Positions 1 through 39,700 of a stretch of DNA of 64,000 nt are shown here, in pieces; position 1 is the stretch's first letter, and every line of letters begins with the position of its first letter. The translations under genes and the position numbers were made by a program. The notes beneath the pieces are model-generated. The model had not been told where the DNA came from, searched no databases, and was given only the letters and a program-made list of their open reading frames with translations. Where the stretch lies: the IMG/VR virus record IMGVR_UViG_3300030202_003189, positions 84,739-148,738 of that record; one strand, written 5' to 3'. Source of the DNA: a virus.

Positions 1-640
1 AGTCTATAGGTTTATTGTATTTTTCACAGAAAGAAAGAATTTTAGAAAAACTTTCAACATTCTGATTCTCTTTTCTATGAATTGTCATAACAGGAGGACC
101 AACAAAAGTAATATCTTTATCGTAATGTTTATTAAGTAATTCGTATTCTAAATCACCAGACACTATTTCATTATTAAAAAAGTCCTGTATGTATCCTGTT
201 TCTCTAGGTGTGAATTGAATCTGTGATGCCAAGTCTGCGACTATCCTGTTTAATTCCTCCGGAACTTTAATATCGTTACATCTTCGACCGGCTTCTACAT
301 GACCAAAAGGGATTTTGTGTTTATAACAAACTAAAGAGGAAGATAAAGTGCTATTTGTATCTCCGTATATTAAAACAAAATCAGGTTTTTCTTTTTTTAA
401 TATTTCACTAAACCTTTCCATAGTTTGTGATATGAAAGATACTTCATCATTATTAGATATTTGTAAATCGTGATCTATAATAAGGGAAAACTCTTCTATA
501 AAGTAATCAGAAACATTTTCACTATAGTGTTGGTTGGTGTCAACAATGATATGGTTAATCTTATTTTCGTTACAATAATCAAAAATAGGTTTTACTTTTA
601 CGTATTGAGGTCTAGTTCCTATTATGCTAAGAATCTTCAT
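1..640 (-). CDS. wbpI: UDP-N-acetylglucosamine 2-epimerase family (WbpI-like), partial
   Basis: Reading the minus strand from the ATG at 640 gives an open frame that runs off the window, so the C-terminal part is missing. The product begins MKILSIIGTRPQYVKVKPI, the typical start of the WecB/WbpI family. It carries GDTNSTLS, GHVEAGRR, PEELNRIVAD and HRKEN, the conserved substrate-site motifs. The family inverts C2 of UDP-HexNAc sugars. Next to WbpB, D, E and G homologs the best guess is the WbpI type, which converts UDP-GlcNAc(3NAc)A to the manno form. This is inference from context, since WecB, acting on UDP-GlcNAc itself, has the same fold. The start overlaps the preceding dehydrogenase gene by 14 bases, so the two are probably translationally coupled. 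The stretch between the PEE and HRKEN motifs looks shorter than in bacterial enzymes. Confidence 0.85.
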   Translation of the reverse strand, partial: MKILSIIGTRPQYVKVKPIFDYCNENKINHIIVDTNQHYSENVSDYFIEEFSLIIDHDLQISNNDEVSFISQTMERFSEILKKEKPDFVLIYGDTNSTLSSSLVCYKHKIPFGHVEAGRRCNDIKVPEELNRIVADLASQIQFTPRETGYIQDFFNNEIVSGDLEYELLNKHYDKDITFVGPPVMTIHRKENQNVESFSKILSFCEKYNKPID

Positions 641-1439
641 TTTTTCTCATTTTGTTTCTTTCGCTTATTGTTGCTCCTAATACTTCACAAATACTACCAT
701 TTTCTAACATTGTGTTATAAAGGGCTTGGGTGTCTTTGGGGAAACACGCACCTCCATAACTTAATCTTCCGTCTGGACCCGGTACGTTTGTGTGCATCTC
801 ATTTACCCATCCATTTCTAAGTATCAGATCTTTTACCACGTCATAACTAGAATCTAGTTTACCACATAAATCATACATTTCATTAAAGAATTGTACCTTA
901 ACCGAATAAAAGGAATTTGCAAATATCTTCATAAGTTCTGATTCTGTAGAGGTACAAATAGAGATTTTAACATCCGGAAAACCAGACTTATATAGTTCTA
1001 TAATATCCTCCAACTGTTCTTCATTTTCAGTATAACCTAATACAATATGTTTTTGTTGTGCGAAATCTTTTTCACTAGTTCTGGCGGTTAGAAATTCAGG
1101 GTTGTGTACGATATTAAGATTGTAAAGGTGAGAAATATTCAAACAAGTATTAGGTTGTGTTGTGCTTTTTATTACGATAGTTCCCCTATACTCTTTTTTA
1201 TTTAGTCTATTTAATATTTCATGTATTGCACTATAGTCATATCCTCTTAATTCATTCGAAAAAAGTGTTGGTAGACATAAGAACATTATATCAGACTCAA
1301 GAGTAGAGTCAAAAGAATCAAAACTTTTATATTTGTCATAACTTCTGGTTTCATATCCTTTATTCCTAAACCAGGAGTAAACGGCGTTACCAACAAACCC
1401 TCTACCAATAACGCTAATTATTTTCTTAGTACTTTTCAT
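627..1439 (-). CDS. UDP-glucose/UDP-GlcNAc 6-dehydrogenase family, short form
   Basis: A 270-residue NAD-dependent nucleotide-sugar dehydrogenase. It opens with a Rossmann motif (VIGRGFVGNAV, residues 10-20). It has the family signature NPEFLTA and the catalytic cysteine motif GGACFPKD (Cys232, Lys235). Bacterial relatives (UDP-Glc or UDP-GlcNAc dehydrogenases, WbpA) are about 420-440 residues; this one stops soon after the catalytic cysteine and lacks most of the C-terminal UDP-binding domain. In the pathway it would oxidise C6 of UDP-GlcNAc to the uronic acid. The frame extends upstream to 1568, but those 43 residues lie inside the acetyltransferase gene and look unlike the family. The ATG at 1439 gives a 14-base overlap with that gene and places the Rossmann motif correctly. 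Whether the short form is active alone is not known. Confidence 0.85.
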   Translation of the reverse strand: MKSTKKIISVIGRGFVGNAVYSWFRNKGYETRSYDKYKSFDSFDSTLESDIMFLCLPTLFSNELRGYDYSAIHEILNRLNKKEYRGTIVIKSTTQPNTCLNISHLYNLNIVHNPEFLTARTSEKDFAQQKHIVLGYTENEEQLEDIIELYKSGFPDVKISICTSTESELMKIFANSFYSVKVQFFNEMYDLCGKLDSSYDVVKDLILRNGWVNEMHTNVPGPDGRLSYGGACFPKDTQALYNTMLENGSICEVLGATISERNKMRKNEDS

Positions 1440-1842
1440 TGTGCATCCTTTGTGCTGGTACTCCCAACCATATTTCATTATTCGGTACGTTTTTGGTGAC
1501 CACTGACCCAGCACCAATTTTACAATCATTTCCCAAAATGATATTAGGTAATAGTGTGGAATTGGCACCTATTGCTGCTCCTTCCTTTACTAGTGTTGGG
1601 GGTTCTTTTCTCCAAGCACCATTAGAAGGTGGATTTTTATCGTTCGTAAAAACAGTATGAGGTCCAACAAAAACATTATCTTCAATAATAATGTTTTCTG
1701 GAATAAATGAACCACAACCAATCCTACAGTTCTTACCTATTTTAACTTTATGACCAATCTCGACAAAGGCTCCAATTCTAGTACCTTCCCCTATCTCTGC
1801 ACTATCATAAATGTTACTACTTTCATGTATATAAGTTTCCAT
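1426..1842 (-). CDS. wbpD: Hexapeptide-repeat N-acetyltransferase, WbpD/WlbB-like
   Basis: About 138 residues of left-handed beta-helix hexapeptide repeats (IGEGTRIGAFVEIG, VKIGKNCRIG, IGANSTLLPNIILG, KIGAGSVVTKNVP), ending in the family hallmark GVPAQRM. The segment DNVFVGPHTVFTND matches the WbpD/WlbB group, which acetylates the 3-amino group of UDP-GlcNAc(3NH2)A using acetyl-CoA. The neighbouring aminotransferase and dehydrogenase support this substrate. The frame is open from an ATG at 1869, but that would overlap the upstream gene by 23 bases. The ATG at 1842 lies 4 bases after the upstream stop and gives the start METYIHESSNI, typical of the family, so I chose it. The enzyme should act as a cytoplasmic trimer, as in its family. 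Confidence 0.88.
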   Translation of the reverse strand: METYIHESSNIYDSAEIGEGTRIGAFVEIGHKVKIGKNCRIGCGSFIPENIIIEDNVFVGPHTVFTNDKNPPSNGAWRKEPPTLVKEGAAIGANSTLLPNIILGNDCKIGAGSVVTKNVPNNEIWLGVPAQRMHNEKY

Positions 1843-1846
1843 ATTT

Positions 1847-2767
1847 CTAAATGTAAAAAGTTTGACCATCTAATTTAACTTCTTTCTGTCTTAGACCGTC
1901 GATTAATTTTATTGTGGGTTCCACATCTTCAAGGGTAAACCCATTCCCTTTTAATATCTCTTCGTAACTAACTTTGTGTAAGTCAGTAAATCCTGTTGAG
2001 AACTCTAACTCTTCTCCGTTTATCTTAATAGACCTAAAGGGTTTCCATTCATCCCACGGGAGGTCCTCCTTCATGATACTTAAGTTGTATCTAACCTTGG
2101 CACCTTTAAGCCATAAAGTACCCTTAGATCTCTTCCCTGTGGTTTCCACCTTAAAATCAACAACATCCCCGAATATCCATATTAACATATCAAAAAAGTG
2201 TACGCCAATATTAGTAACCACCCCTCCAGATTTATCTGAATCGCCTTTCCAGGAATAATCATACCAAACACCTCTTGGTGTTATATAATCTAATGTTACC
2301 TCATGTTGTGTGATAGGAGATATGTTTTTATATTTTTCTTTAAGTTGTTTAATGAGTGGATGATGTCTCAGTTGAAGAATGTTGTATATCTTTTTTCCTG
2401 TTTCTTTCTCTAGACCTTTTAATGACTGTAGGTGTTTATCTCTTAGAACAAGAGGTTTTTCACAAATAACATCACAGTCATTTCTTAGCGATAGTCTTAT
2501 ATGTGCATCATGAAGATAGTTAGGACTACAAATTGAAACATAGTCGATGTCATCTTTGTGTCGGTAAAGATGTCGATCAAATCTTTCAGCCTCTTTGAAG
2601 TATGCGGCTTGTGGGAAATGCTTGTCTATGTATCCTACCCCATCATAGGGATCAAGAAGTGCCACCAAGTTACTATCAGTATGTTTTATCGCTTCAACAT
2701 GACGAGGGGCAATATAACCCCCGGCACCTATAAGTGCAAAATTCTTTATATTATTTTTTGAACCCAT
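1847..2767 (-). CDS. wbpB: Gfo/Idh/MocA-family UDP-GlcNAcA 3-dehydrogenase, WbpB/WlbA-like
   Basis: A 306-residue oxidoreductase with an N-terminal NAD-binding motif (ALIGAGGYIAPRH, residues 11-23) and the catalytic EKP motif (residues 103-105). Further WlbA-type stretches are DYVSICSPNYLHDAHI, YNILQLRHHP, GVVTNIGVHFFDML and EFSTGFTDLH. WlbA/WbpB oxidises C3 of UDP-GlcNAc-uronate, producing the 3-keto substrate for the aminotransferase encoded just upstream. Full length for the family. The start overlaps the end of the aminotransferase gene by 17 bases, as expected for coupled translation within the operon. The identity is supported by several long stretches that I recognise from WlbA, not only by the general fold. 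Confidence 0.92.
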   Translation of the reverse strand: MGSKNNIKNFALIGAGGYIAPRHVEAIKHTDSNLVALLDPYDGVGYIDKHFPQAAYFKEAERFDRHLYRHKDDIDYVSICSPNYLHDAHIRLSLRNDCDVICEKPLVLRDKHLQSLKGLEKETGKKIYNILQLRHHPLIKQLKEKYKNISPITQHEVTLDYITPRGVWYDYSWKGDSDKSGGVVTNIGVHFFDMLIWIFGDVVDFKVETTGKRSKGTLWLKGAKVRYNLSIMKEDLPWDEWKPFRSIKINGEELEFSTGFTDLHKVSYEEILKGNGFTLEDVEPTIKLIDGLRQKEVKLDGQTFYI

Positions 2768-3869
2768 TTATACAAGTTATTATCGTTTTTAATTCATTTT
2801 CAGTAAGGTGTGGAGATACAGGTATATGTAAAACCTCCTTACATCTTTTTTCGCATTCAGGTAGCGATTGGTCCCCAAAAATCTTTTGGTATATCGGTTG
2901 TTTGTGTAATGGAATTGGCCAATAAACAAAGGTTTCAACACCGACATCTGACAGACTTTTTTGTAGCTCATCTCTACCTTCTACTATCAGAGTATACAGG
3001 TACCAACTATGATTGTCAATAGTATCAGTAGGGTACGGTAATGTAACTCTAGGATTTTTAATATTATCAAAGTAATATTGTGCGTTTTTTTGTCTTCTTT
3101 TTAACCACTCATCCGAGGCACCATTTAATAATACAGTGAGGAATCTAGCTTGTAATGCATCCAACCTTAAATTACCCCCTATAGTCTCATGGTAGTATCT
3201 TTTCTTAGAACCATGGGCTCTAATCATTTTTATTTTATTATAGGTTTCTTCGCTATTAGTTATCACAATACCACCATCCCCCAAACAACCTAATGTTTTA
3301 GCAGGAAAAAAACTAAAAGATGATGCTAGTGAATGTGTTCCTGAGTGACCTCCTTCAGGATAATAAGAACCGAAAGATTCTGCGGCATCTTCAAATAAGA
3401 AAGCTCCTCTGGATTTACAAAAATTATTAAGTTCCTTAATTGATTTGGTTTCGCCGAAAAGATGAACAAACATTACCGCTTTAGTGTTTTCAGTCCAAGC
3501 CTCCTTAAATTCTTTTACTGATGGATGAAAGGAACCGGGCTCATTATCTACAAATATAGGATTTAATCCTGCAACTAATATTGCTTCAGAACTTGCAATA
3601 AAAGTATATGAGGGTACCAATACGTCAGAACCTTTAGGTAAGTCCAAGGACATTAAGATGGCTAACAATCCATCTGTACCACTCGAAACCCCTACCGCAT
3701 ATTTGGCTCCTGTATATTCGGCAAACTCCTGCTCAAATCTACTAACTGAGGGACCATTCACGTAAATCCCGTCAGATAATGACTTATCTAACTCCCCCAT
3801 TAAATAATCTTTATAGGGTGCCAGCAACTTAGGATAGTCAAAAAATCTAATAGTTTCTTTTGTTTGCAT
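2751..3869 (-). CDS. wbpE: PLP-dependent sugar aminotransferase (DegT/DnrJ/EryC1), WbpE-like
   Basis: A 372-residue family member of normal length. Visible motifs are VSSGTDGL (cofactor phosphate site), EDAAESFG with Asp161 facing the pyridine nitrogen, and SFFPAKTLG, in which Lys191 is the predicted Schiff-base lysine. The family transfers the amino group of glutamate to keto sugars. Placed between WbpB-like and WbpG-like genes, it most probably makes UDP-GlcNAc(3NH2)A from the 3-keto intermediate. It overlaps the upstream amidotransferase gene by 23 bases and the downstream WbpB-like gene by 17. Substrate assignment is by context; the aminotransferase class is certain. Confidence 0.92.
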   Translation of the reverse strand: MQTKETIRFFDYPKLLAPYKDYLMGELDKSLSDGIYVNGPSVSRFEQEFAEYTGAKYAVGVSSGTDGLLAILMSLDLPKGSDVLVPSYTFIASSEAILVAGLNPIFVDNEPGSFHPSVKEFKEAWTENTKAVMFVHLFGETKSIKELNNFCKSRGAFLFEDAAESFGSYYPEGGHSGTHSLASSFSFFPAKTLGCLGDGGIVITNSEETYNKIKMIRAHGSKKRYYHETIGGNLRLDALQARFLTVLLNGASDEWLKRRQKNAQYYFDNIKNPRVTLPYPTDTIDNHSWYLYTLIVEGRDELQKSLSDVGVETFVYWPIPLHKQPIYQKIFGDQSLPECEKRCKEVLHIPVSPHLTENELKTIITCINGFKK

Positions 3870-4980
3870 ATTTTAAGTAAAAGCTTTTAGGTACTAAATT
3901 TAATCTATATAAGACATAAAAGAAAGGCCTAAGTCTCTCAAATAGTCTTTTGTATGTTGGGTAATCGGTATAATCCTTTTTATCATTAGTCATGATATCG
4001 TTAAATTGTTCATCTGTTAAATCTAATCTTTTCTTCATTTCTACGATTAAACTATCATCCATTTCTTTATCTTCCATCATTTTTATAAGGGCCAATTTTC
4101 TTGTCATCTGTCCAGATCTAATTAGAGCGGAATACTCACACTTTCTTAGGTCAATACCAAATTTATTAGGAAGATAAAAATTATTTACAAAGTATGCAGA
4201 ACGATTTTCCATGTGGTGACCTCCATACCATTCCCATCCATATTCATCATGTAAGAATTTTTTAGTTTGTTCTTTATCATAATCCAGATAATAAAGAGGT
4301 CTAATCCTTTTAATTCTTTTCACCAATAATTGTCTCATCCAAGGCCAAAAATCCATAAGAGGTAGCGTAGTTAGTTTAGTTTTTCCAAATAATTTATGTA
4401 TTGATCTAACATATTTTGCATCTTGGTAAAACCATCCTTGTGGTGAAATCCCTTCGGTTCTAAATGAATGACCATTCCATATCCATTTTATACCATATTC
4501 TTCTGCCGCTTTATAAAGTGTGGCGCCAATAGCTAAGTCAGTACCAGAATCTAGATCAGGAACCGAAGCTAAAAAAAATGAACGAACTAGATCGTTGTAT
4601 TCCTTGTTATCGACTACATGGGTGTATAAATCAATATCTAAAGAAGTTATCATTCTTTCTATGTTTTCTACGGCTATCTTTGAATTCCAGGTGTTGTCGA
4701 AATGAACAGCAAGTGGTCGTAAACCACACTTAACCGCTAAGTGTAATAGGTATGAAGAGTCACATCCTCCACTCACACCTACAATTACATCGTATTTTTT
4801 CCTCTTACCATCCTTCTTCATCTGATTAATGACGTCATTTAGTATTCTACCCCCTTCCTCACCAACCGGATATTCCTTATCTAACTCGACATCTCTTTCA
4901 CAATAGTTACAAACCCCATCATTATTAAACTTGATGTAAGGGATAGTTTCATCGTAGATACAGTTATTACATATTTTCAT
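3847..4980 (-). CDS. wbpG: N-acetyl sugar amidotransferase, WbpG/PseA-type
   Basis: A 377-residue PP-loop ATPase. Four cysteines near the N-terminus (Cys4, 7, 24, 27; CNNCIYDE and CNYC) form the metal-binding knuckle typical of this family. The PP-loop is SGGCDSS (residues 70-76), and SVPDLDSGTDLAIG and IWNGHSFRTEGISPQGW are characteristic. WbpG uses ATP and ammonia to convert the 3-acetamido group of the uronic acid to an acetamidino group. The ammonia is supplied by a HisH/HisF pair, and genes for both lie immediately upstream in this operon, which supports this role strongly. PseA and LegA relatives modify pseudaminic or legionaminic acids, but no gene for those pathways is visible here. 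The 14-base overlap with the HisF-like gene suggests coupled expression. Confidence 0.92.
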   Translation of the reverse strand: MKICNNCIYDETIPYIKFNNDGVCNYCERDVELDKEYPVGEEGGRILNDVINQMKKDGKRKKYDVIVGVSGGCDSSYLLHLAVKCGLRPLAVHFDNTWNSKIAVENIERMITSLDIDLYTHVVDNKEYNDLVRSFFLASVPDLDSGTDLAIGATLYKAAEEYGIKWIWNGHSFRTEGISPQGWFYQDAKYVRSIHKLFGKTKLTTLPLMDFWPWMRQLLVKRIKRIRPLYYLDYDKEQTKKFLHDEYGWEWYGGHHMENRSAYFVNNFYLPNKFGIDLRKCEYSALIRSGQMTRKLALIKMMEDKEMDDSLIVEMKKRLDLTDEQFNDIMTNDKKDYTDYPTYKRLFERLRPFFYVLYRLNLVPKSFYLKYANKRNY

Positions 4981-5728
4981 AATTTTTTATTATTTTGTCA
5001 ATTTCATTTTGTTTTGGGAATCTAATTAGTACCCCCATATTTTTTTTAGAGTAAACACACATACTACCTAATGCGACCCCCGAACTACCACTTATGATAG
5101 AATCTTGTATATCTTTTATCTTACCAACCCCACCACAAGATATAACTGGAAGATGAGTATTTTTACAAACTTCTTTAATTATACTGGTATCCATACCTTC
5201 CCAAGTTCCGTCCCTATCTACTGAATATAATAAAATTTCACCAACACCTAATTCTTCTAAAGACTTAATATACTCAATTGGGGTTAAATCTACTGTTTTT
5301 TTATTAGAATGTCTATAAATTCGATATTTCCCCCAAAAATTCTTTTTTATATCTACAGAGGCAACTATACTTTGACTACCAAATAGTTTTATTGCCTCCT
5401 CTATAGTTTGTCGGTCCTCGAATAGAAGAGTATTAACTATAATCTTTTCTATCCCTAGTTGGAATAGCTTTCTCATGTCGTCTATTGTTTTAACACTACC
5501 CCCATAACATAACGGCATGAAACATTCTCTTGTTATCTTACGTATAACATCAAAAGGAATATCTTTTTTAGAGATATCAATTAAAACCAACTCATCCACT
5601 TCCTTTCCGTTAAATATTTTTATTGCGTTCACTGCATCCCCCACATATGAAGGATTATCAAATTTAACGGTTTTAACTAAGGAACCGTCTTTCAATAATA
5701 AACAGGGCATAATTCTAGGTCTTAACAT
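4967..5728 (-). CDS. hisF2: HisF-like ammonia-channel TIM barrel serving the amidotransferase
   Basis: A 253-residue (beta/alpha)8 barrel of the HisF family, as shown by LRPRIMPCLLLKDG, PLCYGGSVKTIDDMR, ASVDIKK, LLYSVDRDGTWEGMD, PVISCGGVGKIKDI and GVALGSM. True HisF has an essential aspartate in the first strand (CLDxxxG). Here the aspartate is replaced by leucine (CLLLKDG), so imidazole glycerol phosphate synthesis is unlikely. This fits the HisF2 group of O-antigen clusters, which passes ammonia from HisH to WbpG. The gene sits between the amidotransferase (14-base overlap) and HisH (one-base gap). No other histidine biosynthesis gene is present, which again argues against an amino-acid role. 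Confidence 0.9.
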   Translation of the reverse strand: MLRPRIMPCLLLKDGSLVKTVKFDNPSYVGDAVNAIKIFNGKEVDELVLIDISKKDIPFDVIRKITRECFMPLCYGGSVKTIDDMRKLFQLGIEKIIVNTLLFEDRQTIEEAIKLFGSQSIVASVDIKKNFWGKYRIYRHSNKKTVDLTPIEYIKSLEELGVGEILLYSVDRDGTWEGMDTSIIKEVCKNTHLPVISCGGVGKIKDIQDSIISGSSGVALGSMCVYSKKNMGVLIRFPKQNEIDKIIKNYENM

Positions 5729-5729
5729 A

Positions 5730-6329
5730 TTACAAATTTATAAAGTTTTCCATTAGTTTCATCCCATATTTATGACTTTTTTCAGGATGAAATTGTACAC
5801 CAAAAATGTTATCTTTAGATATTCCAGATGTAAATTTAATACCATAGGTGGTCTCTAACATAATATCTTCTTTGTTGTCACACTCAACATAATAAGAATG
5901 TACAAAGTAAAAACGAGAATCTTCTTTACATAACTCTGATTTTATTGGTTTTACTTGATTCCATCCCATATGGGGGACCTTCAAAGTAATGTCACTAAAG
6001 TTAAATTTTTTACATTCTCCTTTTACAAACCCTAGTCCCGATTGGTTTCCCTCTTCACTCTTTTCCATTAGTAATTGCATACCAAGACAAATCCCTAATA
6101 TTGGTTTATGTTTTTCTATTACATTATGGTGTAGTTTTCCTAACCATCCGGAATGAATTATATTATCCATACCATTATCAAAAGATCCCACTCCAGGTAA
6201 AACTATTTTATCAACTAATTTTAATTCTTCGGGGGACTTAACGATTTTAGTTTTATGATATCCTAAAAAATTTATCATCGATTCAACAGAACCCACATTA
6301 CCCATTCCGTAGTCAACTATACCTATCAT
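5730..6329 (-). CDS. hisH2: HisH-like class I glutamine amidotransferase
   Basis: A 199-residue glutaminase of the HisH type and usual length. It begins [16 protein letters not shown]. The nucleophile elbow is GICLGMQLL with Cys81, and the remaining triad is in VQFHPEKS (His181, Glu183); LPGVGSFDNGM is the oxyanion strand. It would release ammonia from glutamine and hand it through the HisF-like barrel to the WbpG-like enzyme. Its ATG overlaps the stop of the upstream acyltransferase (ATGA), and a single base separates it from the HisF-like gene. All catalytic residues are in place, so the protein should be active. Confidence 0.92.
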   Translation of the reverse strand: MIGIVDYGMGNVGSVESMINFLGYHKTKIVKSPEELKLVDKIVLPGVGSFDNGMDNIIHSGWLGKLHHNVIEKHKPILGICLGMQLLMEKSEEGNQSGLGFVKGECKKFNFSDITLKVPHMGWNQVKPIKSELCKEDSRFYFVHSYYVECDNKEDIMLETTYGIKFTSGISKDNIFGVQFHPEKSHKYGMKLMENFINL

Positions 6330-6853
6330 TTTCTTATTCTTATTAATCTCGCAGGGACTCCTGCGATTACACTATATTCTGGGAAGTCTTTGGTTACTAC
6401 CGCTCCAGCACCAACTTGGGTTCCTTTTTTAATTGTAACCCCTGGCATAATTACAGAGTTGACCCCTAAATCGGAGTCGTCCTCAATAATAACTGGTTTG
6501 AATTCTAATTCTTCGTGTAGTATCGGTTGGTTTATATTTGTGTCTTTATGATGACTTGTGAGTATTTTAACTCCTGGTCCTATACCTATATTTTTACCTA
6601 TTTTAATACCACCAGCAGAATGAAAGAAACATTGTTGACCAATCCAGGTTCCCTCTTCTATTATCATCTCATTTTTATAGTAACCTTTTAGAATTGTATT
6701 GTGTCCGATATAGACGTTATCGTGTATGGAAATGTTTTCAGGATGAAATAGGAGTACACCGTCCTCTAATATAGTTTTTTCACCTAGTCTCTTAAGGGAG
6801 TCTTTATTATAAAAACCTTTTTCATTTAATCTACCGTTTCCGTGACTTTCCAT
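6326..6853 (-). CDS. Hexapeptide-repeat acyltransferase
   Basis: A 175-residue left-handed beta-helix protein with a short N-terminal region followed by hexapeptide turns ([55 protein letters not shown]). It closes with [13 protein letters not shown], the standard end of sugar O- or N-acetyltransferases. ILTSHHKD supplies the catalytic histidine region seen in maltose/galactoside acetyltransferase relatives. It is a second acyltransferase, distinct from the WbpD-like one. It probably decorates a sugar made or transferred by the operon; the substrate cannot be told. It overlaps the epimerase gene upstream by 28 bases. Confidence 0.85.
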
Positions 6854-7797
6854 TTGTCTTTTATGTATTTTGCTGTTCTTAATATCCCTTCTTCTAAATC
6901 TATTTTAGACGTAAAACCTAAAACTTCCTTTGCTTTTTCTACGCTTGGTATTCTAATTGCAACATCCGCTGATAATGGTGGATCAAAAACAATTTTAGAT
7001 TTAGAGTTTAGAACCCTACAAATTGTTTGTGCCAAACCTAAAATAGTTATAACGGCTCTCGGATTACCTATGTTAAAACTTTCTCCTACGGCTTTCGGAT
7101 TTATTATACACTCTTCTAAACAATCTACAAAATCGTCAACGTAACACCAGGCTCGTATTTGATTTCCATCCCCATCAATGTGAATATCTTCATTTCGTAA
7201 GGCTTTTTCAATAAAAATTTGTAACGCTCCGTTAGCTGACTGTCCAGGTCCATAAACATTAAAAGGTCTAATAGTAACTACTGGTAAATTGTATTGAGTC
7301 GTATAAGCTTTTGCTAAATGTTCTCCGGCTAACTTACTTACTGCATAAACCCATCTAGCCTCACCAGCAGAGCCCGCCACTGTTTGGTCTTCTTCTTTAG
7401 ATTTGAAAGCCATTGAACCAAAGACTTCAGAAGTTGAGAATTCTACAATTCTATCTTTAATCCCTAGTCTCTGACATACTTCTAAAACATTAGCCGTACC
7501 TATCATGTTAACCCTCATTGTTTTAACAGGGTATTTTATTACCGTATCAATTCCAGCAATCGCGGCTGCGTGTATAACAATATCAGGGAGATTAGAACTC
7601 ATGGATATAGATAGTTTATCATAGTCTAAAATGTCTCCTTTAATAATTGTTAAATTTTTATGACCACTTAAACCACTAGAAGATAGGGTATCCCTCTCAA
7701 AATTATCATATACAGTAATTTTGTGAGTTTTTATAAATCTTTTAATTATTGTGTTGGCGATAAATCCAGCCCCTCCTGTTATAAAAATCTTTTTCAT
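6826..7797 (-). CDS. NAD-dependent nucleotide-sugar epimerase/dehydratase (extended SDR)
   Basis: A 323-residue extended short-chain dehydrogenase. The Rossmann motif is GGAGFIAN (residues 8-15), the catalytic pair lies in YAVSK (Tyr151, Lys155), and [10 protein letters not shown] is the usual substrate-side motif. It belongs to the GalE/dTDP-glucose-4,6-dehydratase superfamily, which modifies C4 and nearby carbons of UDP-, dTDP- or CDP-sugars. The sequence does not decide between epimerase and dehydratase. No partner genes of a dTDP-rhamnose pathway are visible, so a UDP-HexNAc 4-epimerase is one option. The start overlaps the previous gene's stop (ATGA, 4 bases). Confidence 0.87.
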
Positions 7798-9140
7798 ATT
7801 AATATTTCTTTTTCAAATTTAATCGCAACCGCCTTGTGAGTTGAGGTCTTATTGTACCATTCTAAACCGTTTTTGGCAATCTGTTTCATTTCTTCTACTG
7901 GTAATTCTAAGAAAGAAAGTAATATATTACCAAAATCATTTGGGTCTTTTCCTAGATGAATAACAGGACAGTTAGGTGCGTCTATATTTTTATTTGCGGC
8001 TTCCATTGCTTCTGGAGTGAAGTTATTGATTGTGGCAAAGGTTATATTACCAGTCATTAATGCTTCAACCGTACTTCCCCCGAAATAACCAACAAATGGA
8101 TTAAACTCATCTATGTATATGTGAGACATTTCTTTTAGTTTCATTATTTCACTATTATCTATCCATCCAGTTTCTTTATCACATAAGTGTTTGGTTTTCT
8201 CATATGTTTGTGGTGTAATAAACTTAAACTTCTTTTTGGTACTATCTTTTGAATTCTTTTCTAAATACTCTATAACTTGTGTTGTAATACTTGTTATTAA
8301 ATCGGTTCCCTTCATCTCTTTAGAGGTTGGGGCGTGGAAGATGATAATCTCATTAGTATCAAACTTCTCATCGATTAACTTCTCTACCTTTTTTCTGTCT
8401 AAGTCTTTATCGTAAGAGGTATATAAAGTAACATGGTTTTCCTTCTTACTCTTCTCTTCAATTCCAATAGAGTTCATAAACAAACCCATAAATTCAGGGA
8501 ATATACCTGGTTTATCAAGACTGTTGGTTGGGGTGGTGTCATACCAAGAAAGTCTATAAAGATCCACACCATGTATTAATTTATTAAAGTGATTAATCCC
8601 TATAAGGTTAAACAGTTGAAAATTGTTTCTATAGTGTGTCCCTGTATGGTATAAATGAATATTTTTATTTTTTCCGGCTTTCGTATCCTCTAAAAGATTA
8701 ATACCTGTCATTTCATTTATCCTACCAATCCCAGTTAGTCTGTTTACTGGATTCTCGGTTCCAGCTTTATTAAAAGTTTGTAAATATTTTTGTACACTCC
8801 TTTGTCCCTTACTGTTGAGTAGTTTTTCTGGTGCGAAGTCTTCTTGGAATGGAGATCTTTCAGGGGCAAATATGATATGATCCGAATCTAACAACCAATC
8901 TTTCGCAGATTTAACATCCTCTTCTCTAATAATAAGATTACCTTCGGCATCCATATCGTTTAAGTTATAGTCATGTTGTTTTGTGAATTTGATTGGGTGA
9001 GGAATTTCACAAATTACTTTAGATTCAAACTCATCGCAATGACTATTAATTGCGGCAGAATACTCAGTCATAACATTTGCGTAATCTTTCCACCCTATAA
9101 AACTTACCTTTTTCTTTTTTATTTCTTTATCCCTTTGCAT
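7794..9140 (-). CDS. GT-B fold glycosyltransferase
   Basis: A 448-residue protein of the GT-B type. The C-terminal half shows [17 protein letters not shown], a common strand-helix at the inter-domain hinge, and [15 protein letters not shown], which corresponds to the donor-binding EAxxxG region of GT4-like enzymes. The N-terminal half (from [17 protein letters not shown]) is the acceptor domain and is not recognisable in detail. It is likely to transfer one of the sugars made by this operon in the cytoplasm. The start overlaps the methyltransferase gene by 22 bases; no later Met gives a better start. Family assignment is moderate because the catalytic motif is divergent. Confidence 0.7.
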
Positions 9141-9715
9141 AAGTATATATTTTGTTTACCATGTTGTCCTTCCGCAATAGCGGTTATCTCAACATCTAAT
9201 TTTTTATTATATCGTTTAATTACCTCATCTTTATCCTTAAAGTGTCTTACATGACTCTCAGTATCAAAACTGGGAACACTGAAAAAGATAACATCTCCCT
9301 TATTTAACCTATCCAAGATTTCCATATCAAAAGGAATGTGCTCGAAAAATTCAAAGGAACAGTATATTACATTATCGTGAGAAGGAAAATCCTTTTCCAA
9401 ATCCATTAAAAAGAATTTCTTTCTTTTCCTATCCTTCCAATTAGAAACCTTACCTTTATTAATCGCCTCAATCGAAAAATCGTATCCGAAGTACTTAATA
9501 TTATCATCCTTTAACATGAGTGGAAAATGTCCTGGACCACAACCCAAATCAACAATAGTGTCTAGTTCTGGTCTTTCATATTTTATGTAATTCATAATAT
9601 CTTCTACAGCACAAGTCCAAACAATATAATACATTTCCATTTCACTAGGCGAAACGTCATAATCTCCTTTACTGTAAGCATTATCGTAATATTCGGCTTT
9701 TTGATATTCTCCCAT
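9119..9715 (-). CDS. Class I SAM-dependent methyltransferase
   Basis: A 198-residue protein with motif I of class I methyltransferases (TIVDLGCGPGHFPLML, residues 53-68). The acidic strand-2 region is YFGYDFSIEAINKG, and CSFEFFEHIPF corresponds to motif II/III. The surrounding genes suggest it methylates a sugar or a glycan end, though a nucleotide or protein substrate cannot be excluded. The gene is of usual size for single-domain enzymes of this type. It starts four bases after the upstream glycosyltransferase stop and overlaps the downstream one by 22 bases. Confidence 0.85.
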   Translation of the reverse strand: MGEYQKAEYYDNAYSKGDYDVSPSEMEMYYIVWTCAVEDIMNYIKYERPELDTIVDLGCGPGHFPLMLKDDNIKYFGYDFSIEAINKGKVSNWKDRKRKKFFLMDLEKDFPSHDNVIYCSFEFFEHIPFDMEILDRLNKGDVIFFSVPSFDTESHVRHFKDKDEVIKRYNKKLDVEITAIAEGQHGKQNIYLCKGIKK

Positions 9716-9719
9716 TTAT

Positions 9720-10472
9720 TTAATCTTTATAAACAGCTTTTGAGACCTCCTGTAGTTTTTGTACATACTTCCAATATTTAGTTTCTCTAACGTCGGTTAA
9801 ATCTTTTTTTGGCCATATCCAGTTATTTCTCTCTCCTTCTAGATAATGTGAACCATGTCCTGGTGGTTCACCATTTGCCCAAGCCTTTCTTCTTCTTTTT
9901 AGAGTTCCTTCTCTTTCTTCTTTAGTTTTAGTATTTCCATAATTAATCATCATACCTTCTATTACCCCTAGTCTCTGACCAGGAAAAGAAACATCATCTG
10001 CCAAATAACGTAAAACAGGATTATATTTGTGTATCATGTTAAACTTATTTAATGTTCCATAATGAAAATAGGTGTTAAATGGATCTTTTTTTCCTCTTTC
10101 CTCTCCAGTGTTAAAAAAGTTAACACATTCTATTTGTGCTAAGTTAAAACCTCTTCTATCTAGTCTTGATAATGCATCATGAAGGGGTTCTATTGTTACT
10201 GGAAACAAATCACATCCATTATAAATTGCCCAATCAGGTTTTTCTCGGTGAAGGGTTTTTACAATATCATTTTGTAACATCCTTAAATCAAAAGAGTCAC
10301 CAGTATCTAATCTATGTGACGGAACTTTATTTTCTTGGAGATATTCCCAAGAACCATCAGTAGACATATTATCTATGATATATGGTTCTAGTTTATTTTG
10401 TTTACAGTATTCTAATTTTAATGGAAGATATTCTCTTTCGTTCCACACTGTTAATATACACATTACTCTCAT
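9720..10472 (-). CDS. GT2-like glycosyltransferase
   Basis: A 250-residue GT-A-type enzyme. MCILTVWNEREYLPLKLEYC and EPYIIDNMSTDGSWEYL form the nucleotide-binding start of the Glyco_tranf_2_4-like group. PDWAIYNGCDLFPV probably holds the metal-binding acidic residue. It is compact, with no membrane segment, and so is presumably cytoplasmic. Its ATG overlaps the upstream gene's stop (bases 10469-10472). Donor and acceptor are unknown. Genes of this type in phages serve lipopolysaccharide change, virion glycosylation or DNA glycosylation; nothing in the protein itself decides. Confidence 0.78.
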   Translation of the reverse strand: MRVMCILTVWNEREYLPLKLEYCKQNKLEPYIIDNMSTDGSWEYLQENKVPSHRLDTGDSFDLRMLQNDIVKTLHREKPDWAIYNGCDLFPVTIEPLHDALSRLDRRGFNLAQIECVNFFNTGEERGKKDPFNTYFHYGTLNKFNMIHKYNPVLRYLADDVSFPGQRLGVIEGMMINYGNTKTKEEREGTLKRRRKAWANGEPPGHGSHYLEGERNNWIWPKKDLTDVRETKYWKYVQKLQEVSKAVYKD

Positions 10473-12022
10473 CCTACTACATTTATAAATTGTCCTATTA
10501 TTCTTCCTTTACGTTCTTGTCCTAAAGCCCCTCCAATAAAAGGGAATAGTCTTTCTCTGTAATCTTCTTGTAAACGATGAAGTTTATCTTCATCTTTATC
10601 TCTGGTTTTACTCTCATAGTGGTATGCCACGGCATCACTCACAAATAAATTAATCTTTCCTTCTAATAAAATTGAGAAATTTAATTCAGCATCCTCAAAA
10701 CATTCCGTGTAGGTTGGGTTAAACCCACCAACCTTTAAGAATAGTTCTTTTTGTACTAATAAAAAAGCCCCAGTATTACCAACGACTGGTGCGACACCTT
10801 CAAAACTATGTCGATAAGCTTGTCGTAAATTATAGTGGGTTATTTCGATACGACTTAAACCTTGTTCGCTCAACCATTCTTTCTTTAACCATAATAACAT
10901 ACCACCATGTTGTACGGTATTGTCTTCAAAATGTAATCTAGCCCCAACAGTACCAACCTTCTTTCTATTTTTTATCCAAGTTGATACCATTCTACTAATA
11001 GCATCATTAATTAACTCAATGTCATTATTACAAAATAATAGTAATTCTGAATCTTCTGAAATATGGTCATAAACAACTTCATTATTAATTTGTGCAAAGT
11101 TATAGTAATCAAATTTTACTAGTTTTATTTTTTCATAATTTCCACAGAATTCTTCTATCTGTTTCATGTTCTTATCTTCACTCCCAGTATCTGCAACTAT
11201 AATCTCATAGTTAACGTACTTTGTTTTGTTAACGATTGAATTGAGGCAATTAAAAAGGATATCTATATTATCCTTTGTTGGGATTATGATTGATAGTTTT
11301 GGTTGTTTTTTAATGTAGGTTTCTTTCTCAGGATAGAAAATTTCAACGGGTACCTCGCTAGGTAAGTTTGAAGAGTAGGTTTCCACAAATTTAATTCTGT
11401 TTTTTTCCCATTCTTCGTTGGTTTCACCAATGGACTTATGTGTAATTCTAATATTGGTAATCACACCTATCTTTACTTCTTCTAAATGATTTCTAAAAGA
11501 GAAGTCCACATCATAAAAATGAAAACCTCTTACTTCTTTGTTAAAATTCTTTTTTAATTTCGTACGATCAACACCAAAGAATAATCCGTCAACCATTACT
11601 ACTGGTATAATATCATTTATAAAAGCTTTAGAGTATTGTGACTCCCAGGTCTTTCCTTCGTTAGAGTGATTTACAATACCCACCATATTAGACAATGGTT
11701 TGTTTATGTCGTCCCACCATCTTCCAGTTTCAGGTAACCTTCTTGTTCCGGCTAAACCTAATATACCATATTCCGATTCCTTAAAATGTGAAATGATTCG
11801 TTTTCCCCATTTTTTAGTGTTAAAAATAATATCGTCATGACAAAATATAATGATGTCATTTTTTGCCTCTTTAAGTGCCTTGTTATAGATTTCCGTTAAG
11901 GAGGTCCCATTAGGATTCTCATAATGTAGAACTTCAAGGTCTTTAACGCCACAAGTATCTGTTATGTGTTTTACATAAGTTTCTTCTAGTTTTCTTGTAC
12001 TAAATACTACTGTTAATTTCAT
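10469..12022 (-). CDS. Two-domain family 2 glycosyltransferase
   Basis: A protein of about 517 residues with two GT-A-like halves. The N-terminal one (KLTVVFSTRKLEETY, NDIIIFCHDDIIF with acidic residues near 63-64) resembles short family 2 enzymes. The second starts near residue 245 with LSIIIPTKDNIDILFNCLNSIV and has LLFCNNDIEL as its DxD equivalent near residue 330. GNTGAFLLVQKELFLKVGGF and ECFEDAELNFSI, typical of acceptor-side motifs in rhamnosyltransferase-like GT2 proteins, follow. The frame is open from an ATG at 12043, but that start lies inside the dUTPase gene. The ATG at 12022 begins one base after the dUTPase stop and gives a normal GT start. Two catalytic halves could add two sugars in sequence, as chondroitin- or O-antigen-type bifunctional transferases do. 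Confidence 0.82.
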   Translation of the reverse strand: MKLTVVFSTRKLEETYVKHITDTCGVKDLEVLHYENPNGTSLTEIYNKALKEAKNDIIIFCHDDIIFNTKKWGKRIISHFKESEYGILGLAGTRRLPETGRWWDDINKPLSNMVGIVNHSNEGKTWESQYSKAFINDIIPVVMVDGLFFGVDRTKLKKNFNKEVRGFHFYDVDFSFRNHLEEVKIGVITNIRITHKSIGETNEEWEKNRIKFVETYSSNLPSEVPVEIFYPEKETYIKKQPKLSIIIPTKDNIDILFNCLNSIVNKTKYVNYEIIVADTGSEDKNMKQIEEFCGNYEKIKLVKFDYYNFAQINNEVVYDHISEDSELLLFCNNDIELINDAISRMVSTWIKNRKKVGTVGARLHFEDNTVQHGGMLLWLKKEWLSEQGLSRIEITHYNLRQAYRHSFEGVAPVVGNTGAFLLVQKELFLKVGGFNPTYTECFEDAELNFSILLEGKINLFVSDAVAYHYESKTRDKDEDKLHRLQEDYRERLFPFIGGALGQERKGRIIGQFINVVG

Positions 12023-12023
12023 T

Positions 12024-12644
12024 TTATTTTCCTGTTGACCCAAAACCGTCTGCGCCTCTGTCAGTTTGGGTTGTTATCTTATTATTTATTAGTTCCACGT
12101 ACTCCCCAGTAACTACTGGACATAAACAAGCTTGGGCAATACGATCACCTTTTCCTATTATTCTTTCCTCACTACTAAAATTAGCTAGAATAATTTTTAT
12201 TTCACCTATATATCCTTGATCTATAGTACCAGGAGAGTTTAACACAAACAAACCTTCCTTAAGAGATAATCCAGACCTACTTCTAACCTGAACCTCAAAT
12301 CCTTTGGGTATTTCTAAACTAATTCCTGTTGGTACCAAACCAACTTCTTTTGGTTGTATAGTTATCCCCTCTGATGCTCTTAGGTCAAAACCACTATCTA
12401 GTTTATAAACAAAAGATGGGTCTTCATTGTCTGATTTATTCTGGAATTTTAGTTCTATTTTTAGATTCTCGTTAAATCCTGCAATATTATTTTTCATTTG
12501 TTGCTCCTTATAGTCCAGATCAACTTGATCAATCTCTTTTGTTAAGTCTATCATTTCATCTAGAGTTGCATCTGATGACATGGCCTCGTACTTGTCCACT
12601 AATTTTCCAAAAACTTTTTCTAAATCATTAATATTGTCATTCAT
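12024..12644 (-). CDS. dut: dUTPase with N-terminal extension
   Basis: A 206-residue protein. The trimeric dUTPase domain begins near residue 60 and contains the five motifs: SGFDLRA (I), RSRSGLSLKEG (II), GTIDQGYIGEIKI (III), GKGDRIAQ (IV) and RGADGFGSTG (V). It splits dUTP to dUMP and pyrophosphate, keeping uracil out of DNA and feeding thymidylate synthesis. The first 55 residues are acidic and helical and do not belong to the enzyme core; their role is unknown. It is unusual to find this DNA-precursor gene inside a sugar operon. It begins one base after the stop of the exonuclease gene. Confidence 0.95.
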   Translation of the reverse strand: MNDNINDLEKVFGKLVDKYEAMSSDATLDEMIDLTKEIDQVDLDYKEQQMKNNIAGFNENLKIELKFQNKSDNEDPSFVYKLDSGFDLRASEGITIQPKEVGLVPTGISLEIPKGFEVQVRSRSGLSLKEGLFVLNSPGTIDQGYIGEIKIILANFSSEERIIGKGDRIAQACLCPVVTGEYVELINNKITTQTDRGADGFGSTGK

Positions 12645-13355: not shown

Positions 13356-14552
13356 TTATTTATTAACAATACTTCTATACCATTCGGCTCTGTTTTTTGT
13401 AACTTCTTTAATATGGTACTTTTGAACATCCTCATAAAGTTGTTCCCCTAACTCTTTAATCATATTTGGATTATTGATTAGGGTTTTAATGTGTTTGTAC
13501 CACCATTTATGATTTTTTGTAGTTGGGACAAGTAGGGAATTCTTCCCATGTACTAAGTCAATAGTATAAGGACCAAAATCCTGTGCGATAAGTGCTTTCT
13601 TATGGAAACCAGCCTCCACAACTTTTAATTGTGATTTTACTTTATTAAATGTTGTTTCTTTTAGTGGTGCTAAAGAAACATCCATTAAATTATAATTTGT
13701 TGCATAAGTTGTAATTGGCTTCGTCCATACTCGTCTATAGTTATCGTATATGTTTTTAGGAGTACCTTTTTTGAACTTTAGTAATTTTTCTACATCTTCT
13801 TTGTTATTCATTATGTCATAATCTGATGTCATTATTTGTTCATACTGGTACCATACCGATTCTTGTGGTGTGATCTTTCTGGTTCTTTTTCTTCCTTGTT
13901 GATCTATTTCAGTCATAGACCCTCTAGTATCGAAACCACATAAAACCATTTGGTATTTATCTTTTAGGGAGGGATCGGCTTTTAGTTTCTGAATATTACC
14001 ACGTAATATTTCTAAATCGTGTTTGTGGGATGAACCACCAAGCCAACCAACTCTCACCTTATCGGATTCTTCTGGGTTTGGAGTAAATTGTCTTTTTGAT
14101 GGGTCGATAGCATTAGGGAATATCTCTACATTCCTATTATGTTGTAACATTTCCTCGGCAAATACTTTGGTAGTTGTTGTTACATACTCAGCGGCTTGGA
14201 TATTGGCTATTATTCGTTGATTAATTTTTTCTTCTACAATCATGGCGTGTGCTGGGTGTTCAGGACCAGGCATCCAATAATCATCTAAATCCATAATAGT
14301 GATAATCCCCCATTTTTTACAATCTTTAAGTAACCTTAGACAATTACCCCAATCACCCATACCTCTATGAAAATGAACAATATCAAAATCTTGCCAATAG
14401 GTATCTCTATTAGTCCATGGGTTATAATTTATTTCTACTCTAAATTCGTTAGGGTAATATTTTTCTAATGCGATGTGAGGATCAATCGACCTGAATGAAC
14501 CAACCCCTGTTCTATCTGAAGGGACAACTAATATTTTTATCTTTTCTGACAT
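13356..14552 (-). CDS. GT-B (GT4-like) glycosyltransferase, first gene of the operon
   Basis: A 398-residue transferase. The N-terminal domain starts IKILVVPSDRTGVGSFRSIDP and contains DIVHFHRGMGDWG. The C-terminal domain has VRVGWLGGSSHKHDLEIL (hinge strand) and LKVVEAGFHKKALIAQDFGP, which matches the donor-binding EAxxxxxP region of GT4 enzymes. It is the first gene of the minus-strand operon; the divergent control region lies directly upstream. Donor sugar and acceptor are unknown. Eleven bases separate it from the exonuclease gene. Confidence 0.82.
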   Translation of the reverse strand: MSEKIKILVVPSDRTGVGSFRSIDPHIALEKYYPNEFRVEINYNPWTNRDTYWQDFDIVHFHRGMGDWGNCLRLLKDCKKWGIITIMDLDDYWMPGPEHPAHAMIVEEKINQRIIANIQAAEYVTTTTKVFAEEMLQHNRNVEIFPNAIDPSKRQFTPNPEESDKVRVGWLGGSSHKHDLEILRGNIQKLKADPSLKDKYQMVLCGFDTRGSMTEIDQQGRKRTRKITPQESVWYQYEQIMTSDYDIMNNKEDVEKLLKFKKGTPKNIYDNYRRVWTKPITTYATNYNLMDVSLAPLKETTFNKVKSQLKVVEAGFHKKALIAQDFGPYTIDLVHGKNSLLVPTTKNHKWWYKHIKTLINNPNMIKELGEQLYEDVQKYHIKEVTKNRAEWYRSIVNK

Positions 14553-36753: not shown

Positions 36754-39700
36754 ATGGCAGATCAGTCACCATTATCACCAGGAGTTTATGTATCAGAAAG
36801 AGAACTAAGCTTTAACGCACCAAGTATTGGTGCAACAACGTTGGCCACAGTTGGAGAAACCCTTAAGGGTCCAGCGCAACAACCAATATTCATTGAAGAT
36901 TATAACGAATATAAAACATATTTTGGTGGGTTAGATACTACGGTTTTTTCTGGTAGTACTAGATTAAAATACGGACAACAATATATTGCTAAGAATTGGT
37001 TGGCGGAATCAAACTCTATGTGGGCCGTACGTTCATTAGGATACTCTGGATATGATGCGGGAACCGCTTGGAATATTTCATTAAACTACGTACCAACCAC
37101 AAATAATGTGTTTAGATCATTTGGTGGGGGTGGTACTGACGGACACTATAACGGACTAACCCAAAGAGAATTAGGAGGAACAGGTATACCATATATGGCA
37201 CCAGACGGTACAATAAGTGCAATGACACTATATAAACCAACTCAATACTCTTTCCCAAACAATGCGGGAGCCACATCAGTACAGCCAGGTATGTATAGTG
37301 GAGGTACATGGGGATATAACGCAGATGCTGACGGAGGTTCGGCTATAAATGGTACACAATATACTAATGCAGGTGGAGGGGCCAACTTTGGTGCAAACTA
37401 CCAATCAGCAATAGAGTTAGCTGTAATATTTTCTGCTACTACATATGGAGGGGCTGGTAAATTAGTCGTAACAGGTAGTACAGGTGGGAATTCTTTTGCG
37501 GGACCATCATCAGAGGCAGCAGGACTTCCTTGGGTTTCAGAATTAACAACAACATCTTATCCTCTTTGTTTATTAAGTGCAACAACACTAGTAATAACTA
37601 CGAACTCTTCAGTAGGGGGTGCTGATCCAACAGCATTTACCGCAGGAGGTTCTGAAGGATTTGAGAGTCCTAGAATAACAACAGGAAGTAACGCAACTAC
37701 TTTCCCAACTATTCAGTGGAAACCAGCAATTTCAGTACATGATAATGGAGTTAACGCGTCTAATGTATCACCAGCAAATATAATACACGCTGGAATGGGG
37801 TCAAGAGATGTCAATCCATTAGGTTATCCTGTAACAGGACACACTTTCCAACTAAATTGGAGGTACGGTAATTATATAGGTGCACATAGTGGAGGGACAA
37901 CTGGATGGACAGCACAAACAACAGGGACCGTGTATACATGGTCGGCGGCAACTCAAGAAATGGTGGTCGGAACTCTAAGAAGTAGAGCAAAATATGCGGG
38001 TAATACTTATAGTACAAACACTGCGTATAATGGAGGTGCTTGGGGAGTCACAGACTACCAATCTCCATCTTTTGGTAATAAGAGTGAATGTGATGGAACA
38101 GTTACTACGTGTCCTGAAAAACCATTTAGGACCATCAATACAACAAACTATAAAGAAGATTTTTATATATCTGGGTATACTAATGGTGCTTCTGTAAATT
38201 CACAATTCCTTTATAAGGTAAGTTTAGACCCTAACTCTCAGTGTTATATCACAAAAGTATTGGGTACAAAAAAACATAATAATTCTCGTCATTTATGGGT
38301 TGAAGACATTTATCCTAACACATTACTTAATTTAGCTTCTTCTGCTGTAACATTCTCAAACATTAATCTAAATAAGGCAGACACATATAGAAATTATACA
38401 GAAACATGGCAACCATTAGGCGCTTTAGAAGGGCCAACAACTCCGTGGATTGTGTCTGAACTAATGGGTAGTACTCTACATAAGTTATTTAGAGTTATTT
38501 TAATACCAGATGGTAACGATGCAAATGAGTTGGTTAAAATATCTATACAAGATGTCGATGTCTTTACTAAAACTTTTACTCTTACTGTTAGAGAATTTAA
38601 CGATAGCGATGCGTCCCAAAGAATATTAGAAGGATATACTAACTGTAGTATGAACCCAACAAGTCAAAACTACATTGGGAAGAAAATAGGAACGGAGAAT
38701 GGGGAATACCCTGTTAGGTCACGATATATTATGTTGGAAATTGATGAAAACGCACCCATAAACGCTCTTCCAAGCGGATTCCAAGGAATCGTCGTTAGAA
38801 GCTATAGTGGGTCAACTCATAGTAATGAAGTTTATCAAGACCCACCTGCACAAACAGAAATTGCAAATGATAGTGGATGGTATGGTAATGAATCACCAAA
38901 ACCATTTTATAATTTAACTTATAATACAACATCTGACGATATTAAGAAAACTTACTTAGGGTGGTCCACTAAAAAAGGTATTGACCAAAATTATTTTAAC
39001 TATAGAGGTCTTGAAACTCTAACAACTACGGCACCATATAAATGTGGTGCTAATGGAACATTATGGACTGGAAGAACTAAAGGATTCCACTTTGATAAAA
39101 GAGTATCCGGATTAACAACAAGTGACGTACTTCAGTATGAGGTAGGGGCTTATAGTTTTTACACTAGTGGTAGTACAGGAACATTAGTAGGTGATAGTGG
39201 AAATTATTATCAAAATAAAGATTATTTGAAATTTACAGTTATTCCTTATGGTGGTTTTGATGGTTGGGATGAATATAGGATAACAAGAACAAATGCTGAC
39301 ACATATATAATAGGAGGGACAGACTACGGCACATTCTGGTATAATCAGAGTTTTACAACATCCACTTGTCAAGTAACTGATTATTATGCTTACTATGATG
39401 CCATGAGGAAACTAGCCAATCCAGAGGCGACACCAAGTAGCGTATTTACAACACCAGGTATAGATTATACAAATAATTTAACATTGGTTAATCGAGCAAA
39501 AGAAATGATAGAAAATGATAAAGGAGACTCGATTTATATTGTAACTTCAGATAACCCAAGAAATCAAACAGTAGATGAAGCTGTAGATAATTTAGAAAAC
39601 GCAGCATTAAATAGTAGTTATATGGCTACGTATTGGCCTTGGGTAAGGTATAACGATACTGAAAATAACGTAAGAATATATATTCCACCTACAGCTAATG

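Follow-up and report, generated by a model that had tools for sequence, protein, structure and literature searches.

Among the closest described counterparts of the locus analyzed here is the pathway by which Pseudomonas aeruginosa O5 makes UDP-ManNAc(3NAm)A using WbpA, WbpB, WbpE, WbpD, WbpI, WbpG, HisH2, and HisF2. The window, a stretch of 64,000 nucleotides, spans G000:84739-148738 of the 231,285-base virus record G000 (IMGVR_UViG_3300030202_003189), which is a large uncultivated tailed phage, and contains a sugar operon with homologs of seven of these eight enzymes. The phage locus differs from that of P. aeruginosa O5 in having a short UDP-glucose dehydrogenase (UGDH)-type protein for WbpA, in having an extra short-chain dehydrogenase/reductase (SDR) and an extra acyltransferase, and in being phage-borne; a flippase, a polymerase, and a WbpL-type protein are not evident in G000. 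Giant viruses differ from G000 in their sugars and their eukaryotic hosts, and their enzymes are unrelated. Nevertheless, those infecting algae and amoebae produce nucleotide sugars themselves and decorate their capsids with glycans (PMC9614988), and like G000 they combine virus-borne sugar biosynthesis with transferases. The Wbp/Vim linking-sugar pathway of Porphyromonas and Tannerella shares WbpB, WbpD, WbpE, and, in Tannerella, a predicted epimerase, and operates in a Bacteroidota and type IX secretion system (T9SS) context (PMC7468200); the presence of the amidotransferase triad (WbpG, HisF2, and HisH2) sets G000 apart from it. Our gene assignments make it modestly probable that the phage operon would make a nucleotide-linked 2,3-diamino-uronic acid with an acetamidino (or formamidino) group, namely UDP-ManNAc(3NAm)A or a close relative, and that glycosyltransferases would attach this sugar, likely to a virion protein.

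The original prediction, made from the window alone, described eight neighboring sugar genes, and all eight are present within positions 1-6329, end to end on the minus strand, with open reading frames (ORFs) that abut or overlap as in an operon:

2..640, minus strand: 5' part of a WbpI-like UDP-sugar 2-epimerase (PF02350), cut by the window edge; full gene L003:357-1379, 340 amino acids (aa)
627..1439, minus strand: short nucleotide-sugar dehydrogenase of 270 aa that may replace WbpA in the phage (PF03721 and PF00984, without PF03720)
1426..1869, minus strand: WbpD-like left-handed beta-helix (LbH) N-acetyltransferase (Hexapep PF00132; PDB 4mzu, 7s43, 3mqg)
1847..2767, minus strand: WbpB 3-dehydrogenase (PDB 3oa2 WbpB, 4.6e-84)
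2751..3869, minus strand: WbpE-like pyridoxal phosphate (PLP) 3-aminotransferase (PF01041, 312.7 bits; 3nyu WbpE, 6.2e-65)
3847..4980, minus strand: WbpG, N-acetyl sugar amidotransferase (TIGR03573 above cut-off; C4, C7, C24, C27; SGGCDS)
4967..5728, minus strand: HisF2 ammonia-channel partner (NF038364 above cut-off; CLLLKDG)
5730..6329, minus strand: HisH2 glutaminase (TIGR01855 above cut-off; GICLGMQ, HPEKS)

The profile and structure searches that had been proposed as a check returned family matches for WbpI, WbpD, WbpB, WbpE, WbpG, HisF2, and HisH2, and these seven assignments hold, that of WbpD tentatively. The remaining gene, predicted to be a WbpA-type dehydrogenase, is not WbpA: it carries UGDH-type motifs (NPEFL, GGACFPKD) rather than WbpA-type motifs (PERxxPG, GGHCI), and both its motifs and a tree ally it to UDP-glucose dehydrogenases, together with other short phage enzymes (CP220, C48C1), although long branches leave its exact position unsure. 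Describing the operon as a full set was therefore overstated; WbpB, WbpE, WbpD, WbpI, and a complete triad are encoded, and the description is valid only if the truncated dehydrogenase carries out the 6-oxidation, as its context suggests. With this first enzyme corrected, the operon is a real and conserved phage pathway, mostly as first read. Single sugar genes are common in phages, but no near-complete route to this rare amidino-uronate turned up in the 50,697 phage records that we searched, and our literature searches found no report of such a route in a phage.

Among solved structures, WbpB matched WbpB itself best, with other Gfo/Idh models much weaker, and it keeps the EKP and NIGVHFxD motifs. 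WbpE has the PLP-lysine motif SFFPAKTLG and qualifies as a fold-type I sugar 3-aminotransferase, with 7b0d and QdtB scoring above 3nyu. WbpD matched the WlbB/WbpD-type 3mqg (1.9e-24), and other sugar N-acetyltransferases scored equally or better. The best PDB match of the WbpI homolog was 8sxy, a UDP-2,3-diacetamido-GlcA 2-epimerase (1.4e-42), and the phage protein retains Arg12, Lys17, Asp98, Glu120, His208, Ser284, Arg302, and Glu306, which are listed as conserved (PMC10622841). The PHROGs collection lacks a WbpB family, and its matches to WbpG and HisF2 were marginal and to unrelated families. Trees bore on the concern that WbpB or WbpG might belong to unrelated subfamilies: both fall within their families, WbpB being placed among cellular WbpB.

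The triad was recognized by family-specific profiles, with WbpG clearing the WbuX cut-off of TIGR03573 (251.9 vs. 203.2 bits), HisF2 the AglZ/HisF2 cut-off of NF038364 (313.6 vs. 310 bits), and HisH2 that of TIGR01855 (234.5 vs. 105.4 bits). The N-acetyl sugar amidotransferase family signature comprises a tetracysteine CXXC...[GN]XCXXC and a PP-loop SGGXDS (PMC10607449); the four cysteines of WbpG are invariant in 16 viral and cellular proteins, and SGGCDS is found in the 4 viral ones. HisF2 has lost the HisF catalytic Asp11 (CLLLKDG vs. CLDVKDG in HisF), as has cellular HisF2, while the Cys nucleophile (GICLGMQ) and His-x-Glu (FHPEKSH) are present in HisH2. Diagnostic residues are present in WbpG, HisF2, HisH2, and WbpI, except that the phage WbpI lacks Glu290. 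Elsewhere in G000, a GlnII-like glutamine synthetase (G000:47474-48547, L006:7474-8547; 407 bits, cut-off 500) could supply glutamine to HisH2.

The cluster is syntenic in three more IMG/VR contigs (L014, L015, and L016), with pathway proteins that are 72-95% identical to those of G000. Among G000, L014, and L016, pathway genes have ratios of nonsynonymous to synonymous polymorphism (pN/pS) of 0.06-0.27 and no internal stops; the putative glycosyltransferase at 7794-9140 evolves faster (pN/pS 0.42). Host contamination, chimerism, and chance were rejected because four contigs share the gene order and blocks of virion genes lie on both sides, together with the low pN/pS and lack of stops. We conclude that the cluster is genuine and viral and that purifying selection maintains it. 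A divergent version occurs in L093, a further T4-like phage by the head and sheath genes of its record, which carries HisH2-HisF2-WbpG, a NeuD-type acetyltransferase, an SDR, WbpE, WbpD, and WbpB. The GT-B-like protein of G000 (7794..9140) is 33% identical to its L093 counterpart, which also adjoins the triad. Beyond G000, the only viral records with HisF2 were the four of L014-L016 and L093, and none of the 50,697 phage records matched WbpG. WbpB and HisF2 matches among those phage records (Listeria, Staphylococcus, Acinetobacter, and faecal) were set aside as distant, mostly unannotated, and in appearance bacterial carry-over; L094-L098 were set aside as further phage WbpG cases as their records lack a T4-like head or sheath match.

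A WbpB alignment search of IMG/VR identified 41 viral loci, 34 of which are distinct at ~97% identity. The short dehydrogenase lies within 10 kb of WbpB in 13 of the 34 (L182, L183, L186, L192, L199, L200, L202, L204, L207, L208, L210, L214, and L215), often directly downstream of WbpB, and no full-length dehydrogenase was seen near viral WbpB in the 34 loci within their limited flanks. Sets of WbpD, WbpI, WbpE, WbpB, and the short dehydrogenase recur in L200, L202, L204, L207, L208, L210, L214, and L215. By comparison, 9 of 20 cellular WbpB loci read contain a full-length WbpA-type gene and none contains the short form, a contrast that is a pattern and not a test given non-independent lineages and limited flanks. 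The viral scans show that a WbpB core is recurrent in uncultivated phages and consistently different from the cellular version. The viral contig L204 also encodes GlmS, glutamine-fructose-6-phosphate transaminase (L204:12653-14470), near its Wbp genes, which suggests a raised supply of UDP-GlcNAc.

Because the short dehydrogenase recurs near viral WbpB, while cellular WbpB clusters have full-length WbpA, it is probably a phage stand-in for WbpA. Its catalytic Thr, Glu, Lys, Asn, Cys, and Asp (T93, E115, K171, N175, C232, and D236) are invariant across 10 viral dehydrogenases, and the top Foldseek matches of its model (pLDDT 72) are UDP-glucose dehydrogenases. Short UDP-glucose dehydrogenases of Campylobacter phage CP220 (256 aa) and phage C48C1 (319 aa) share its truncation and motifs; these phages, however, gave no WbpB or WbpG match, whereas the enzyme of G000 sits inside a Wbp operon. 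A similarly built short dehydrogenase is encoded near a WbpG triad in an Aenigmatarchaeota metagenome-assembled genome (L023:4444-5349), and viral contigs L110-L112 have one amid glycosyltransferase-like and epimerase-like genes, with no clear WbpB.

G000 is classed as a T4-like myophage by its T4-type major head protein, head protease, tail sheath, and tail tube (phrog_138, phrog_207, phrog_23, and phrog_4542). The host of G000 is likely a member of the Bacteroidota, probably marine, because the phage encodes a protein tagged for T9SS. This 1262-aa protein (G000:33021-36809, L005:13021-16809), a secreted, phage-encoded T9SS cargo, has a Bacteroidota-like signal peptide, many GCTDxxAxNYNPxAxxDDGSC repeats, and a C-terminal T9SS type A sorting domain (46.8 vs. 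cut-off 23 bits), a domain present also in the record of L105. The head proteins closest to that of G000 are from Microcystis phage Mel-JY01, an uncultured phage, Flavobacterium phage immuto, and Rhodothermus phage RM378. Two more secreted Bacteroidota-like proteins (G000:199561-201661, L011) have short C-termini that resemble T9SS tails by eye and gave no NCBIfam match.

From gene content, family membership, catalytic motifs, conservation, and selection, we infer substrates, products, a role for the short dehydrogenase, and a target as follows. Host UDP-GlcNAc would be oxidized at C6 by the short dehydrogenase, or the uronate would come from host WbpA; C3 oxidation by WbpB, amination by WbpE, and acetylation by WbpD would follow, and the WbpI homolog would invert C2. 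WbpG would then convert an N-acyl group to an amidine with ammonia supplied through HisH2/HisF2. The SDR and second acyltransferase may modify this sugar further or serve to make a second one that accompanies it. In the last step, phage glycosyltransferases would transfer the sugar, with a tail protein or another protein of the virion as the most likely acceptor. ManNAc3NAmA is the likely product but not the only possible one, because the phage WbpG groups with bacterial amidotransferases of SDR and/or acyltransferase loci that lack WbpB; the exact sugar is tentative because the extra SDR and second acyltransferase belong to the cluster. The proposed pathway makes two ideas testable: glycosylation of phage particles with O-antigen-type sugars and sugar dehydrogenase action without a UDP-binding domain. 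If virions do bear such a glycan, its cationic amidine could influence how particles adsorb, shield their surface, or mimic the host.

Several results weigh against a single amidino-uronate route ending on the virion. Read from its own ATG, the dehydrogenase has only NAD and central domains and no UDP-binding domain (PF03720), and the WbpA/WecC clade leaves it out at 100/99. The position of Glu290, which bridges ribose hydroxyls in the Thermus enzyme (PMC10622841), is Thr in the window WbpI and in 10/10 further phage WbpI proteins read, but Glu in cellular WbpI proteins where the site is readable. The 141-kb record of L093 gave no dehydrogenase or WbpI match, the phage WbpG is not closest to WbpG of WbpB-containing loci, and the virion glycan is a prediction. 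The short dehydrogenase might act outside the pathway, with UDP-GlcNAcA provided by host WbpA. A profile search of the whole 231-kb G000 found no PF03720, with 14/14 control genomes positive and the domain present in the cellular WbpA of L053, which also led us to reject the idea that the domain is encoded elsewhere in G000; L093 has the pathway without the short dehydrogenase; and Bacteroidota WbpB clusters contain full-length WbpA. Yet in numerous viral contigs the short dehydrogenase is a neighbor of WbpB or of WbpD/WbpI, and its catalytic residues are invariant; we consider a role outside the pathway unlikely. More speculative, and to us improbable, is that a widespread phage family evolved its own diamino-uronate pathway in which its first and last enzymes, the 6-dehydrogenase and 2-epimerase, have changed how they bind the nucleotide, either because the carrier differs (e.g., a deoxynucleotide-linked dTDP- or dUDP-sugar, plentiful in infected cells) or because substrates are held by a partner enzyme. 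Alternatively, the cluster could make two sugars, with WbpB, WbpE, WbpD, and WbpI yielding a diacetamido-uronate and the SDR, second acyltransferase, WbpG, HisF2, and HisH2 a separate amidino sugar (e.g., via a 4-keto intermediate), as in some bacterial flagellar loci. WbpG of the G000 type and L093 forms one viral clade (99/90) that is sister, in a supported group, to WbpG of bacterial loci L018-L021, where the triad is accompanied by the same SDR and/or LbH acyltransferase with no WbpB nearby. The SDR is up to 73% identical to cellular genes adjoining WbpG triads, none of 20 cellular WbpB clusters has an SDR of >50% identity, the triad is rare in Bacteroidota ones, and in L016 a formyltransferase (L016:7584-8531, PF00551/PF02911) replaces the second LbH acyltransferase, which would fit a formamidino rather than an acetamidino group. 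However, the two modules stay together in an unbroken series of genes in two divergent phages, and the only aminotransferase gene of the cluster is of the 3-amino type, leaving two sugars a tentative and rather doubtful option.

As to the target, a virion glycan is our best guess. A virion protein is favored because glycosyltransferases and neighboring tail genes accompany the cluster, and because the bacterial loci nearest to it by WbpG, L018 and L021, adjoin flagellin and flagellar cap genes (read by eye). A simple hydropathy scan of G000 revealed no ORF with >5 predicted transmembrane segments, and no Wzx, Wzy, WecA, or ligase was evident; O-unit export or polymerization by the phage therefore appears unlikely. 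A serious rival, though not one we expect to prevail, is that the sugar remodels the host surface, for example as a Wbp-derived sugar linking T9SS cargo to lipopolysaccharide in Bacteroidota, and so blocks superinfection or anchors phage-made cargo. It draws on the phage-encoded protein with the sorting domain, on WbpB being present in 77 of 396 sampled Bacteroidota genomes, and on the derivation of T9SS linking sugars from the Wbp/Vim pathway (PMC7468200). It is countered by the flippase, polymerase, and initiating transferase not being evident in G000 and by the scarcity of the triad in Bacteroidota: of 17 WbpB clusters read, a single one has a triad gene in its vicinity, at a distance of 10 kb. 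Glycosylation of DNA is known in phages generally, but no base-modifying partner was seen in the cluster, with the rest of the genome not systematically screened, and phage DNA as the target is highly improbable.

The sugar unit extends beyond position 6329 to ~14.5 kb, where a tail gene at 14666 runs divergently. From WbpI, the order is short dehydrogenase, WbpD, WbpB, WbpE, WbpG, HisF2, HisH2, LbH acyltransferase, SDR, GT-B-like protein, and methyltransferase, followed by more glycosyltransferase-like genes, a dUTPase, an exonuclease-like gene, and another glycosyltransferase, all on the minus strand; six glycosyltransferase-like genes accompany the cluster. The features beyond HisH2 are:

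6326..6853, minus strand: second LbH acyltransferase, with 51-61% identity to bacterial genes, most of which immediately precede hisH2
6826..7797, minus strand: extended SDR of dehydratase, epimerase, or decarboxylase type (motif STSEVFG; PDB 8vr2, 1.9e-124; phrog_540)
7794..9140, minus strand: putative GT-B glycosyltransferase (no Pfam match; AF2 pLDDT 66, low confidence, weak GT-B fold matches)
9119..9715, minus strand: methyltransferase (PF13489; no match in the L014-L016 loci)
9720..10472, minus strand: conserved 250-aa protein, glycosyltransferase-like by eye (no Pfam match; 94-97% identity in relatives; pN/pS 0.06-0.07)
10469..12043, minus strand: two-domain GT2 glycosyltransferase (PF13712, PF00535)
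13356..14552, minus strand: GT-B-like glycosyltransferase (weak PF13692; kept in L014-L016; oriented away from the tail gene at 14666)

Left of WbpI, where a look for further sugar or transfer genes had been proposed, a sigma-like gene comes first, and a pair of glycosyltransferase-like genes, one nucleotidase-like gene, and PhoH follow it toward WbpI. Among the virion genes, two adjacent large proteins (window 33916-36732 and 36754-40236) resemble tail sheath paralogs, the first confirmed by PHROGs, and the records of L014 and L015 likewise have two tail-sheath-like proteins. A cysteine-synthase-like gene (L002:10351-11262) directly adjoins the major head protein gene.

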